Shown here in pieces: positions 25,885 through 29,885 of a DNA stretch of 45,135 nt. The DNA is from Erysipelotrichaceae bacterium (lineage in GTDB: Bacteria; Bacillota_I; Bacilli_A; Erysipelotrichales; Erysipelotrichaceae). A program made the position numbers and the translations under genes. The notes below the pieces were generated by a model. That model saw nothing but the letters and a program-made list of their open reading frames with translations, made no database searches and was not told the DNA's origin. Positions within the stretch are counted from its first letter, which is position 1. Each line of letters starts with the position of its first letter. Location: assembly GCA_030531215.1 (NCBI GenBank), contig JAUNNY010000009.1, positions 1 to 45,135 on the forward strand. The letters are read 5' to 3'.

Positions 25885-26337
25885 ATGAAAATAGGAATCT
25901 CCGCATGTTTGTTAGGATACAACGTTAGATACAATGGAACAAACAAATTAAATGACAAATTATTAGATATTTTAAAAGATCACGAATTAATACCTATTTG
26001 TCCTGAACAATTAGCAACTTTTCCCATTCCTCATTTACCATTAGAAATAAAAAACAATAAAGTTTTTGATGAAAGTGGTAAAGATGTAACCAAACAATTA
26101 CAAGAAGGATCAATAAAAGCATACGAATTAATTAAAGATTGTGATTTTTTAGTTTTGAAAACAAAATCCCCTTCTTGTGGTTATCGCAAAATATATGATG
26201 GTACTTTTTCTGGAAAAATAATAAATGGGAATGGCGTGTTCACTGATATAGCATTAAAAAATAATAAAAAAGTCTTCAGTGAAGAAGACTTGGAGTTAAT
26301 TATTACTTACCTAACAAGAAGTGTTTGTAACCATTAA
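25885..26337 (+). CDS. DUF523 family protein
   Basis: 150 residues, the normal length for stand-alone DUF523. Family motifs: ISACLLGYNVRYNGTNK (Cys), PICPEQLATFPIP and LKTKSPSCGYRKIYDG with GNGVF. These cysteine-rich small proteins have been linked to tRNA thiolation-type chemistry and sulphur handling, but the activity is unproven. The 3' end overlaps the convergent GatD-like gene by 35 bp. Transcription appears leaderless from TATAAT at 25873. Confidence 0.85.
   Translation: MKIGISACLLGYNVRYNGTNKLNDKLLDILKDHELIPICPEQLATFPIPHLPLEIKNNKVFDESGKDVTKQLQEGSIKAYELIKDCDFLVLKTKSPSCGYRKIYDGTFSGKIINGNGVFTDIALKNNKKVFSEEDLELIITYLTRSVCNH
26257..26291 (-). terminator. Terminator of scpA-gatD operon embedded in the DUF523 coding region
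   Basis: Arms AAGTCTTC (26270-26277) and GAAGACTT (26284-26291) with a 6-nt loop, followed on the minus strand by TTTTTATTATTTTTT. It lies 11 bp past the GatD-like stop but wholly inside the convergent DUF523 reading frame. Confidence 0.7.
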
Positions 26338-27001
26338 CACGATCAGTGTATGCATCTAATATTTCGTTTTCAAATTTCAAGTTTGGTTCTATGCCAAACT
26401 TTTTTAATAGATTTTTAACAAACAAAGGATTTTGAATAAATAATGGCCCCAATAAATAAGTACCCATAAAATTATTTTTTCTGATACCTTCTATATTTTC
26501 TTTAGGATTATTTCCGGTTCCCTTTACAATCTCAAATAATCCTTTTTCTTTTGAATCATAAATCATGCCAAACTGAGTTTTGAAACCGATGATTTCTAAA
26601 TCTTCAAACTTACCTAAAAAATGAGAATTATGTCTAGTATTGTAATCATATTTAGAATAAAAATCTAAAATACCAAGACATTCTATTTTATTTCCACTTC
26701 TTTCAATATAATTTCCAAATACCTCAACAGCATTATAGGTCATCAAAAAATAAGTATTATTATCTATTAATTCTTTAAGACGTTTTTTATATGGCATCAA
26801 TTTTTCAATAACAGCATTCTGTGAGAATTCAGTCATCGCACCCATATATATCATGTCGACATCATGATTGACAAAATATGGCTCTTCATCAAAATCGTCA
26901 TTGATAACTTCAATGTTGTCGCTGCACATTGCCATATATTTAACATTTGCAGCATCACCATAGATACCACATATTTCTGGGAATAAGAATTCTAGTTTCA
27001 T
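26303..27001 (-). CDS. GatD-like type 1 glutamine amidotransferase homologue lacking catalytic Cys and His
   Basis: 232 residues, normal GatD length, and clearly homologous: FPEICGIYGDAANVKYM, GTGNNPKENIEGIRKNNFMG and TYLLGPLFIQNP line up with GatD of lipid II isoglutaminyl synthase. The nucleophile elbow, normally ICGGxQLLG, reads TYNAVEVFG, putting Tyr89 at the cysteine; the active-site histidine in YLHGP is Leu184; and GGGQDxEQ has become GAMTEFSQ. It should therefore be unable to release ammonia from glutamine. The frame is intact and coupled by a 4-nt overlap to the MurT-like gene, so it is not a decaying pseudogene. A structural or regulatory role, or ammonia use by MurT, is possible. 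Confidence 0.82.
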   Translation of the reverse strand: MKLEFLFPEICGIYGDAANVKYMAMCSDNIEVINDDFDEEPYFVNHDVDMIYMGAMTEFSQNAVIEKLMPYKKRLKELIDNNTYFLMTYNAVEVFGNYIERSGNKIECLGILDFYSKYDYNTRHNSHFLGKFEDLEIIGFKTQFGMIYDSKEKGLFEIVKGTGNNPKENIEGIRKNNFMGTYLLGPLFIQNPLFVKNLLKKFGIEPNLKFENEILDAYTDRVNGYKHFLLGK

Positions 27002-28365
27002 CCTAATTCCTCCATTTTAGTTCCGATTGATTTTCTTAATTCTAAAGCTAAATCACAAGAATAGATATCGTAAGACAAGAAAATATTATTGACATCTTTA
27101 TAGGCAATTTTATCAATTACCTTATGTTCCTCATCGACAATAATTATTTTTTCTTTATCTACTCCTGCGATAAGTAATCTTACTAAGTAATATTTACTAC
27201 GTGGTCCGCCAATAATAATCTTATTGATATATTTATCGTTTGCCAGTAACTCAAAATCAACATCATAAATCCAATGTTCTGTTTCAACTTCATATTTTCT
27301 TCTTTGCAAATCATCGAAAACAAAAACTATATCTTTGCTATCCTTGCAATCATTAATTGTTTTAAGCATTGGATATAAAGTATTCGGATTTGAACCTTTA
27401 ATCATTATTGAGGTCAAATTCTTGCCCTTAACTTGTTGATTCGCAAAACGTGAATCAAGAATTTTAATCTTTTCAAAAGATTCGTTTATTGATGCGGTAG
27501 AATAACCTAATTCTTTTAGAACAGAAATAACAGCTAATACGTTGTAGGTGTTTGGAATATTATTAAAGTTAATATCGTATTTCTCTCTATTCATTAAGAA
27601 ATAATTGTTTTTGAAATTAATCATATTAATTTCATACTTACACTCAGGTCTCTTAAAACCACAGCTACATTCATAATTACCAATGTTATTATATTTAACA
27701 TAATTGTATTTAAGTTTATGATGACACTTAGGACACAAGACCATATCATTAACAATATTGAATATATCATCATGGTCTTCATCTAATTTTTCCATACCAT
27801 AATAAATTGAATTATTATTTCCTAAAGTTACACACAACGCATCATCGGCATTAATCACTAAGGTGGTATCTTCAGGAATTGCTTCAGCTATTCTATCTCT
27901 AACATAATCAGGTGTTGAATTAGCTTTAATTGAATCTCTCATTAAATTATTAACAATCATATAATTTGGTGTGATGTTTTTAAAGATTGAGGAACTAGAA
28001 ATTTCATCAATTTCTAAAATTGCTACATCAGCTGTAACCATATTAAAAATATTTACACAGTCAGCTAAATATGCAATTACACCAGGTGCAGTATTAAAAC
28101 CATCATTGTTAACAACTTTTAAATAATTCTTCTTAAAAAAATCAACAAACATTTGGCAAATTGTCGATTTACCATTTGTTCCTGTGATTGCGATAATTAG
28201 CTTTGGCTTATTTAGATAATAACGAAAATTAGGACATATCTTAGCAGCAACATTGCCCGCAAAATAAGGCACATGTTTGCGTGCTAATTTCATAGCAACT
28301 TGTGTTAATTTACATGCCCATAAGGCGATAAAAAAGAAAAACTTGTTATCTCTTTTATATTTCAT
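26998..28365 (-). CDS. murT: MurT-like Mur ligase family protein
   Basis: 455 residues. Mur-ligase ATP site AITGTNGKST near 59-68, LEIDEISSSS, NADDALC, a zinc-ribbon insert with CPKC (211, 214) and YECSCGFKRP (233, 235), ANQQVKGKN and a C-terminal WIYDVDFE (Asp368), as in MurT, which with GatD amidates glutamate of lipid II. The second zinc pair is CxC rather than CxxC, and NLFRDQLDR is replaced by NLMRDSIKAN. Sits between scpB and the GatD-like gene, 2 nt after the scpB stop. Amidation of D-Glu is the family role, but its partner lacks glutaminase residues, so it might use free ammonia or do something else. Confidence 0.8.
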   Translation of the reverse strand: MKYKRDNKFFFFIALWACKLTQVAMKLARKHVPYFAGNVAAKICPNFRYYLNKPKLIIAITGTNGKSTICQMFVDFFKKNYLKVVNNDGFNTAPGVIAYLADCVNIFNMVTADVAILEIDEISSSSIFKNITPNYMIVNNLMRDSIKANSTPDYVRDRIAEAIPEDTTLVINADDALCVTLGNNNSIYYGMEKLDEDHDDIFNIVNDMVLCPKCHHKLKYNYVKYNNIGNYECSCGFKRPECKYEINMINFKNNYFLMNREKYDINFNNIPNTYNVLAVISVLKELGYSTASINESFEKIKILDSRFANQQVKGKNLTSIMIKGSNPNTLYPMLKTINDCKDSKDIVFVFDDLQRRKYEVETEHWIYDVDFELLANDKYINKIIIGGPRSKYYLVRLLIAGVDKEKIIIVDEEHKVIDKIAYKDVNNIFLSYDIYSCDLALELRKSIGTKMEELG

Positions 28366-28367
28366 AT

Positions 28368-29108
28368 TTATTCAAATAAATTCTCTTCCTCATCTCTATT
28401 TGAGAATTCAGGTAAATCTGGAAGTTCATTTAATGTATATAGTTTAAATGAGTCCATAAATTCTTCTGTTACTTCATATAGAATTGGCTTACCTGGAGCA
28501 TCTGATCTTCCGACTTCTCTGATTAAATTTCTTGCTTGAAGTTTTCTAAGCATCATTTCAGCGCCAACTCCTCTTAATTCTTCTATTTCAACTCTAGTGA
28601 TTGGTTGCTTATATGCAATGATTGCTAAAGTCTCTAAGGCAGCTTGTGATAAAGCGTTGGTCTTTGTTGTTTGGAAAAGTTTTTGTGCATATGGATATAC
28701 ATCTTTTTTAGAAACAAATTTATATACTGAACCATAACCAACTAATTCGATGCCGAACACTTCACTAGCATATTTATGTTGGATATTTTCTAAAATAATT
28801 TTTGTATCTTCTAAAGATTTTTCAATAGTTGAGGCAATTTGTTCAAGCTTAACGCCATCTTCACCAACTATGTATAGAAGGCCTTCTACAATAGCTTCAA
28901 TATTTGTAGGTTCTTTAACCTCTTCTCTTTCAATGACGTTGCTATCTTTAATTTCATCTTTTTGTTCAGTTACAACTTCGGTTTGTGGTTCTTCGTTTTC
29001 AGAAATTGTTTCTTCTACATCGTCATTTACAGCTGTCTCAGCATTATCGATTACAGCTTCTTCTTGTATGTTTTCAACTACTTCTTCAATATTATTATCA
29101 TTATTCAT
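28368..29108 (-). CDS. scpB: Segregation and condensation protein B
   Basis: 246 residues from the ATG at 29108, chosen because AAGGGG lies 8 nt upstream and the ATG overlaps the scpA stop by 8 nt. Residues about 70-246 form the winged-helix ScpB body (EAIVEGLLYIVGEDGV, ALETLAIIAYKQPITR, EIEELRGVGAEMMLRKLQ, GRPGKP-like APGKPILYEVT). The first 60-70 residues are a very acidic, Glu/Asp/Asn-rich low-complexity tail absent from most ScpB. With ScpA and Smc it forms the bacterial condensin. Confidence 0.92.
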   Translation of the reverse strand: MNNDNNIEEVVENIQEEAVIDNAETAVNDDVEETISENEEPQTEVVTEQKDEIKDSNVIEREEVKEPTNIEAIVEGLLYIVGEDGVKLEQIASTIEKSLEDTKIILENIQHKYASEVFGIELVGYGSVYKFVSKKDVYPYAQKLFQTTKTNALSQAALETLAIIAYKQPITRVEIEELRGVGAEMMLRKLQARNLIREVGRSDAPGKPILYEVTEEFMDSFKLYTLNELPDLPEFSNRDEEENLFE

Positions 29109-29835
29109 TGTTGCTTCCCCTTCTAAACCAAATTTCTTCTTTTTCATTTACACTAAATACTAAATAATGGTTTTTAGCCATATCTAAAATCGCTAAGAAT
29201 GTAACGATGTATTGCTGAATATCTGTACAATCATCAATTAATGTATCAAATGAGAATGTTTCTGGTAAATCTTTTAATCTAGCTTTAATTTGTAAAATTC
29301 TATCTTCTGGTGACAATTCAGTCTTCGTAAATTTAACATCCATCGGTTTAGATAGTTGTATTCTACGAAGCACCTTACTCATAGCCTTCAATAAATCGTA
29401 AGGGTCACCTTCAAGCTTTTGTGTTTCTATTTCATCTTTATGTTTTACTACCTCATCATATGATGTTGGCTTTGAAAGTTGGTCTTGTCTATCAATATAT
29501 GAATCGTACAAAGTTTTTGATACTTCTTTGTATTTTTGATATTCCAACAATCTTCTTACTAGTTTATCCTTAGGATCTTCGTAATCATCTTCAATTTCAT
29601 CACTTCTTTGTGGAAGTAATTTCTTTGATTTATATTCAATTAATGTAGCTAGTTCAACTAGGTATTCACTTTCAATCTCTAGATGCAAATCTTCCATCTT
29701 GTGAAGATATTCTATATATTGGTCAGTTAGAACTACCATATCCAAATCAAAAATATCTAATTCTTGTTCACGAATTAGATGAAGCATTAAGTCTAAAGGA
29801 CCTTCAAATTTAAGTGTTTCTACCTCGAATGCCAT
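29101..29835 (-). CDS. scpA: Segregation and condensation protein A
   Basis: 244 residues from the ATG at 29835 (MAFEVETLKFEGPLDLML), the conserved ScpA N-terminus; a start 10 codons upstream would be non-homologous. Further motifs: DIFDLDMVVLTDQYIEYL, LATLIEYKSKKLLP and a C-terminal winged-helix VTFLAILDMAKNH. Kleisin subunit bridging Smc heads. TGGTATAAT (extended -10) ends 7 nt before this ATG with no ribosome site, predicting a leaderless mRNA for the scpA-scpB-murT-gatD-like operon. Confidence 0.92.
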   Translation of the reverse strand: MAFEVETLKFEGPLDLMLHLIREQELDIFDLDMVVLTDQYIEYLHKMEDLHLEIESEYLVELATLIEYKSKKLLPQRSDEIEDDYEDPKDKLVRRLLEYQKYKEVSKTLYDSYIDRQDQLSKPTSYDEVVKHKDEIETQKLEGDPYDLLKAMSKVLRRIQLSKPMDVKFTKTELSPEDRILQIKARLKDLPETFSFDTLIDDCTDIQQYIVTFLAILDMAKNHYLVFSVNEKEEIWFRRGSNNE

Positions 29836-29885
29836 CGCAATGATTATACCATTATGTGCTATCATAAATGAAGAGGTACAAAGAC
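29836..29885. promoter_or_regulatory. 50-bp divergent promoter between scpA and rpiB
   Basis: Minus strand: extended -10 TGGTATAAT (TATAAT 29843-29848), 7 nt from the scpA ATG. Plus strand: extended -10 TGCTATCAT (TATCAT 29860-29865) followed by AGAGGT and the rpiB ATG. TATGTGCTATCATA (29853-29866) is the inverse of the block in the mrp/DUF523 gap. Confidence 0.6.

Follow-up and report, generated by a model that had tools for sequence, protein, structure and literature searches.

A MurT/GatD-type gene pair of an Erysipelotrichaceae bacterium belongs to a widespread subfamily without the glutaminase active site

The amidation of D-Glu that MurT/GatD carries out has been studied as a drug target. 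What does such a complex do when its GatD subunit has lost the catalytic residues? This question is raised by a gatD-like gene in the genome of an Erysipelotrichaceae bacterium (assembly GCA_030531215.1), located within a window of 45,135 bp; the window is the whole stretch of DNA that was analyzed (contig JAUNNY010000009.1, positions 1 to 45,135). The first-pass annotation had described the gene as a full-length gatD homologue with a lost active site, coupled to a MurT-like ligase, and had left three functions for the complex: use of free ammonia, attachment of something else, or regulation. The evidence presented here leans to attachment of something else.

The gatD-like open reading frame is intact, starts with ATG, and is preceded by a Shine-Dalgarno-like GGAGG. 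It overlaps the murT-like gene by 4 bp (ATGA) on the same strand; hence, both genes form an operon (Table 1). The deduced protein P0001 matched GatDs in the PDB along its own length (E 6e-15 to 6e-16), carried the Pfam domain GATase_3, and matched the NCBIfam GatD models with an E-value of 1.3e-21; scores of 77 and 71 bits were below the equivalog cut-offs of 400 and 450. The AlphaFold2 model reached a mean pLDDT of 96.9, and the nearest solved structures were all GatDs with S. aureus 6gs2 at the top (TM-score 0.84). The claimed full-length relationship to GatD was thus upheld by sequence and structure matches. The MurT-like protein matched S. aureus MurT with E 7e-51 and comprises a Mur ligase middle domain with a P-loop as well as a MurT_C domain. 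The gene is indeed intact and coupled to a ligase which has kept its ATP site and Asp368, as the overlap and the alignment confirmed. On the other side, a TudS-like gene on the plus strand (25885-26337) overlaps the gatD-like gene tail to tail by 35 bp.

Table 1. Genes and sequence features at the gatD-like locus (positions within the window).
Feature	Position	Strand	Remarks
gatD-like gene, altered type (glutaminase lost), 232 aa, P0001	26303..27001	-	homology, model, dN/dS about 0.07
GatD codons 54-61, GAMTEFSQ	26819..26842	-	replaces GGGxDxEQ
GatD codons 88-93, TYNAVE, former nucleophile elbow	26723..26740	-	canonical I-C-G-G-Y-Q, clade T-G-N-A-x-E; Tyr89 replaces catalytic Cys
GatD codon 184, Leu	26450..26452	-	replaces catalytic His; H-G-P becomes L-G-P
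murT-like gene, Mur ligase, 455 aa, coupled partner	26998..28365	-	homology, 4-bp overlap
MurT codons 62-67, GTNGKS, ATP-binding P-loop	28165..28182	-	kept
MurT codons 140-153, NLMRDSIKANSTPD, loop facing GatD	27907..27948	-	Ala and Thr replace clade R148 and H151
MurT codons 211-235, Cys4 zinc ribbon (C211, C214, C233, C235)	27661..27735	-	kept
MurT codon 368, Asp	27262..27264	-	S. aureus Asp349 in alignment
scpB, upstream neighbour of murT-like gene	28368..29147	-	
scpA	29101-29865	-	

In an alignment including S. aureus GatD, Tyr89 occupied the position of Cys94, Leu184 that of His189, and GAMTEFSQ that of GGGSDREQ; the substitutions noted in the first-pass annotation were therefore confirmed. 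The catalytic roles of GatD Cys94 and His189 and of MurT Asp349 were published for S. aureus (PMC6113224), and the exchanges C94S and C94G were shown to abolish glutamine use (PMC3266927). The window GatD possesses three other cysteines at positions 11, 26, and 108, one of which might be catalytic together with another His if the alignment were wrong; however, these columns are filled in 40%, 34%, and 17% of the related altered-type GatDs described below, and 16 of 158 such proteins contain no cysteine at all. With no conserved Cys column, an alternative Cys/His pair was ruled out, the probability of an alignment error is practically negligible, and the claim of a lost active site stands. Judged from its sequence, the MurT/GatD of the window is almost certainly not a glutaminase.

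We read 202 distinct GatDs, including proteins from outside the Erysipelotrichaceae, and assigned 158 to an altered and 44 to a classical type. All 44 classical proteins carry CGG[YF]Q or close variants together with HGP. Cys and His are both absent from 158/158 altered-type proteins, none of which has HGP; their elbow reads TGN[AS]x[ED] (131/158) or a variant, with T conserved in 90%, G in 97%, N in 94%, A/S in 100%, and E/D in 96%. Furthermore, ENHGG of the classical GatD is mostly replaced by KSQFS, and Gln143 is newly conserved. Among 272 genomes of the family, both kinds were found, and intermediates were not seen. One altered GatD (L096:1501-2190, contig G001:C8) has the elbow TGCAME with a Cys one residue past the old catalytic position and no His at HGP. 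In a quick-search tree calculated without the motif columns, a single branch (SH-aLRT 100) divided 80 thinned altered pairs from 27 classical pairs; with S. aureus as the root, the altered type had a single origin. The window protein was placed inside this Cys/His-less clade, the support of 100 referring to the clade.

The closest ortholog, encoded by a congener (G004), is 86% identical to the window GatD and in the same state, with dN 0.08, dS 1.2, and dN/dS of about 0.07; the MurT partner gave a dN/dS of 0.04. It had been considered that close relatives might all keep Cys and His, which would point to local decay, with a once normal gatD degenerating in this lineage or assembly; they do not keep them, as the whole clade lacks both residues. 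As to whether Tyr89 and Leu184 are conserved in a clade, the loss of Cys and His proved to be clade-wide, but Tyr89 itself is private to the window gene and one ortholog, with Gly at this position in 97% of the clade. This private residue and the origin of the sequence from an assembly that is 69% complete could be taken in favor of decay; the intact frame, the confident model, the ortholog in the same state at a dS of 1.2, and the state of the entire clade make it very improbable. Purifying selection and clade-wide loss thus argue against local decay, and the window gene is best regarded as a member of an old and widespread subfamily rather than as a lone degenerate gene. They also support the earlier suggestion of a MurT/GatD-type complex which no longer uses glutamine and is retained under selection.

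The altered clade spans Erysipelotrichaceae, Anaerovoracaceae, Oscillospirales, and other Bacillota. GTDB r220 was scanned with a profile of the clade A subset, and the taxon list is biased to clade A accordingly; the best 80 of 386 relatives include Mogibacterium timidum, Mobilibacterium timonense, Baileyella intestinalis, [Eubacterium] infirmum, Sporobacter termitidis, Candidatus Acutalibacter, and many uncultured Clostridia. The altered type was also found in a further family of the same class, among members with small genomes. Of 174 sampled Clostridia genomes with a MurT_C match, 43 scored in the range of altered partners, a count made by score alone with fragments included. The altered GatD of Vescimonas fastidiosa is annotated as 'hypothetical protein' beside a 'Mur ligase family protein'.

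Additionally, we searched for a second, normal murT-gatD in the window's genome (G000), a 1.16-Mb metagenome-assembled genome. A second pair exists on contig C39; it is of the typical altered type without Cys and His. Neither a third pair nor a classical pair was found in this 69% complete assembly. Orthologs of both pairs are encoded by the congener G004 (96% complete), and a classical pair was not found there either. Altered and classical MurT never co-occurred in any of the family's 196 genomes with a MurT; in each altered-type genome, even the highest MurT_C score fell in the altered range. Two or three pairs were present in 19 of 74 altered-type genomes as compared to one clear two-pair case in 122 classical genomes. 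At two loci (L182:6001-10261 and L189), two adjoining altered pairs form a cluster with the different gene order gatD-murT-murT-gatD. Elsewhere, a solitary MurT-like gene of the classical score range (L222:2683-4032, minus strand, contig G043:C59) has a Crp/Fnr-like regulator gene in the place of gatD.

The ligase half has changed together with GatD. A comparison of 39 classical with 131 altered-type MurTs revealed that the latter keep the P-loop, Asn91, Glu118, Asp120/Glu121, Arg306, Lys323, Asn326, and the Cys4 ribbon. The loop facing GatD reads N-F-F-R-D-Q-L-D-R-x-x-E in the classical MurTs, where R-D-Q-L-D-R and E are invariant, and N-L-x-R-D-S-x-x-R-N-x-H-x-E in the altered ones; the window MurT has RDSIKANSTPD instead of RDQLDRxxE. 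In S. pneumoniae, MurT loop 135-143 is located at the GatD interface and was proposed as an ammonia channel (PMC6085368). Furthermore, Arg122 is new in altered MurTs (84%). New conservation therefore flanks the former ammonia passage on both sides, as expected of a re-used pocket; the strict conservation of the new elbow also argues for a re-used pocket over a passive remnant. Asp368 is kept in 95% of the clade although its His partner is gone; hence, it has another role. The first-pass annotation had pointed to this kept Asp, and its conservation holds throughout the clade; it is no sign of residual glutaminase function. Among paralogues, unusual GatD elbows showed no association with unusual MurT loops (Fisher p 0.52).

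A scan of flanking genes revealed PF14397 (ATPgrasp_ST), a predicted amidoligase, as the sole recurrent partner of altered pairs. It was found near 29 of 144 altered loci and 0 of 26 classical loci; the altered cases come from several distinct lineages, with the gene either preceding or following the pair. Genome-wide, 59 of 74 altered-type genomes of the family carry PF14397 as compared to 7 of 122 classical ones (Fisher p 9e-28, uncorrected for kinship); counted by genus, the numbers are 12 of 17 and 1 of about 29. Just 6 of 16 Clostridia with the altered type have it; hence, an ATP-grasp step would not be universal. In genomes of the window's own genus, the altered pair is accompanied by a gene for a SpoVB/MurJ-type flippase and by the ATP-grasp gene. 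In one of these (G028), the genes for flippase, ATPgrasp_ST, altered MurT, and altered GatD overlap or abut in the same direction and are followed by a gene for a CHAP-domain protein (L040:6053-10734, contig G028:C38). Three other genomes (G031, G035, and G030) have MurT-GatD-flippase beside ATP-grasp. The company of flippase and ATP-grasp ligase ties the pair to lipid II and amide-bond formation. A single conserved neighbourhood for the clade was rejected because the context varies; likewise, the idea that the ScpA/ScpB neighbourhood is part of the system was not borne out, as scpB is not conserved beside other clade members.

The MurE specificity motif is linked to the ATP-grasp gene by a tendency, not by a rule, and hints at the reason for the absence of this gene from some altered-type genomes. 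Several altered-type genomes without PF14397 have the meso-DAP motif DNPR, among them Sporobacter, and many genomes with PF14397 have other motifs; the motif is QDAR in the window's genome and DDPS in G024 and G028. In two related genomes, the window's own and G004 (contig G004:C34, L263), MurE is fused to an Amidohydro_3 amidohydrolase domain. The fusion in the window's genome is one frame of 966 aa (G000:C8:4725-6083 and on; L261:1462-4359, plus strand), in which QDAR stands instead of DNPR/DDPR and GKGHE is changed to GKGIE. Genomes that are probably Erysipelothrix (group g61) possess ATP-grasp genes and mostly lack MurT/GatD. Three of these without MurT/GatD (loci L282, L283, and L284 in G201, G207, and G202) carry two ATPgrasp_ST genes close to each other near Lon-like and EngB-like genes, and these paired genes are candidates for bridge synthesis in probable Erysipelothrix.

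We tentatively propose that the altered MurT/GatD is a lipid II ligase which has abandoned glutamine; its substrate is probably an amino acid, which it would link to the α-carboxyl group of D-Glu. GatD would have lost its glutaminase chemistry once and would have been retained as the obligate partner of its own MurT-like ligase, together termed 'TGNA-type'. The altered MurT would still activate the α-carboxyl group of lipid II D-Glu with ATP; we consider it likely that this D-Glu is still the acceptor. The attacking amine would be other than glutamine-derived ammonia, and an amino acid or a short amine, most likely bound by the remodelled MurT-GatD interface, would then be joined to D-Glu. An amino acid rather than ammonia is slightly favored as donor, because the new motif is strict, paralogues are multiple, and an amidoligase is found in company with the pair. 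The added residue would be the first of an α-linked branch or bridge, as in group B or α-glycyl walls, and the ATP-grasp ligase may add further residues. A more specific version, possible and held with rather low confidence, describes the TGNA-type as an ATP-dependent, tRNA-independent ligase of a free amino acid, with the dead glutaminase as the amino-acid binding half, the ATP-grasp ligase adding the next residue, and paralogues adding different residues.

Alternatively, the complex may still synthesize D-isoglutamine as the classical product, taking free NH3/NH4+ from ammonia-rich gut or rumen with the altered GatD as a structural half. Given ammonia at pH 8.5, S. aureus MurT with GatD C94G is still able to amidate lipid II, and both subunits are necessary for this activity, neither being active alone (PMC3266927); loss of the Cys alone therefore requires no new donor, and this is the strongest point for ammonia. 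The mutual exclusion of altered and classical pairs fits an identical product, and altered-type genomes with a DNPR MurE and without ATP-grasp are what plain amidation predicts. However, the S. aureus complex did not use ammonia at pH 7.5, and for plain amidation neither the new strictly conserved polar residues in the elbow and the MurT loop, nor several paralogues per genome, nor operons with ATP-grasp and flippase genes would be expected. We regard ammonia use as possible, although somewhat doubtful.

The pair located in the window differs from its clade. At the elbow T-Y-N-A-V-E, Tyr89 replaces the clade's Gly, and its MurT has Ile122, Ala148, and Thr151 where the clade has Arg, Arg, and His; the loop thus contains A-N-S-T as compared to R-N-x-H, whereas the second pair of the same genome on contig C39 is typical. 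The nearest relative in the tree is the G028 copy (support 91), which shares the loop change, keeps TGNA, and is part of the ATP-grasp operon described above; the window pair is not adjacent to the ATP-grasp gene of its genome. By these signatures, the window copy is an atypical member of the altered type; its donor is less certain, and the copy may represent a paralogue that uses a different donor. The lost signatures and the co-existence with a typical altered pair would also suit a non-catalytic role, in which the pair senses lipid II or ATP, or in which the window copy alone is a pseudoenzyme and the C39 pair is active. Against this, the P-loop, the Mg/acceptor residues, Arg306, and Lys323 of the window MurT are intact and dN/dS is 0.04-0.07, so that we consider a non-catalytic or regulatory function unlikely.

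The proposed amino acid ligase can be compared with known systems. The two-gene operon and the GatD fold resemble MurT/GatD of S. aureus, S. pneumoniae, and S. pyogenes (6gs2, 6fqb, and 9sq9), and the window ligase has the P-loop, the acidic Mg pair, the zinc ribbon, and the Asp349 equivalent of classical MurT. In contrast, the altered pair lacks Cys, His, GGGxDxEQ, and ENHGG, and RDQLDRxxE is replaced; the window pair reached 77 and 195 bits, where the NCBIfam cut-offs are 400 and 800. Judging by these features, it works in the MurT/GatD frame but lacks the catalytic features that define GatD, and its classification as lipid II isoglutaminyl synthase should therefore be avoided. In carbamoyl-phosphate synthetase I, a Cys-less glutaminase domain is found in an ammonia user; the likeness consists in a glutaminase half retained as a structural subunit after Cys loss, but the whole of the altered pocket has been rebuilt around a new conserved signature, accompanied by changes in the ligase half. 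MurD, MurE, and MurF belong to the same ligase superfamily and drive the joining of amine and carboxyl group on the stem peptide with ATP; however, they act on UDP precursors without a GatD partner. Altered MurT has no MurD/E/F N-terminal domain and stays MurT-like (E 7e-51 to 7q8e). A description of a Cys-less GatD or of the altered subfamily was not found in the literature searched, and no NCBIfam model covers the altered pair above cut-off.

Synthesis of group B or α-glycyl side chains would, by analogy, use the same α-carboxyl group of D-Glu, and an enzyme for its first step was not found in the literature searched. To our knowledge, wall chemistry has not been described for the organisms in which we found the altered type. 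B1-delta walls, in which D-Glu carries amino acids, are present in Erysipelotrichaceae such as Holdemania and Erysipelothrix (PMC4062643), and Gly or D-Ser on the D-Glu α-carboxylate was described in other taxa (PMC11555704). The link to group B is weakened since Cys and His are retained in a plasmid-encoded GatD of the group B taxon Leifsonia, and most of the probable Erysipelothrix genomes lack the pair; group B walls would hence not require the altered pair. The group B wall as a simple marker of the altered type was rejected for these reasons and also because Sporobacter combines an altered pair with a DNPR MurE. On the Leifsonia shinshuensis plasmid (NZ_CP043642.1, L239), the classical murT/gatD lies beside an M15 peptidase gene called vanY-like; murT/gatD-like copies are also present on Enterococcus and Limosilactobacillus plasmids.

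The altered clade occurs in many Bacillota, mostly uncultured lineages from gut, rumen, and digesters, and its proteins are annotated as 'hypothetical protein' or 'glutamine amidotransferase'. The data suggest that these gut and rumen bacteria decorate their cell-wall building block with something other than glutamine-derived ammonia. If only ammonia is used, the clade would amount to the C94G experiment carried out by nature on a large scale. Should the ligase attach amino acids, it would be a candidate enzyme for the residues on the D-Glu α-carboxyl group in walls that are cross-linked there, and the wall fragments shed by these bacteria, which include NOD2-type ligands, would change as well.
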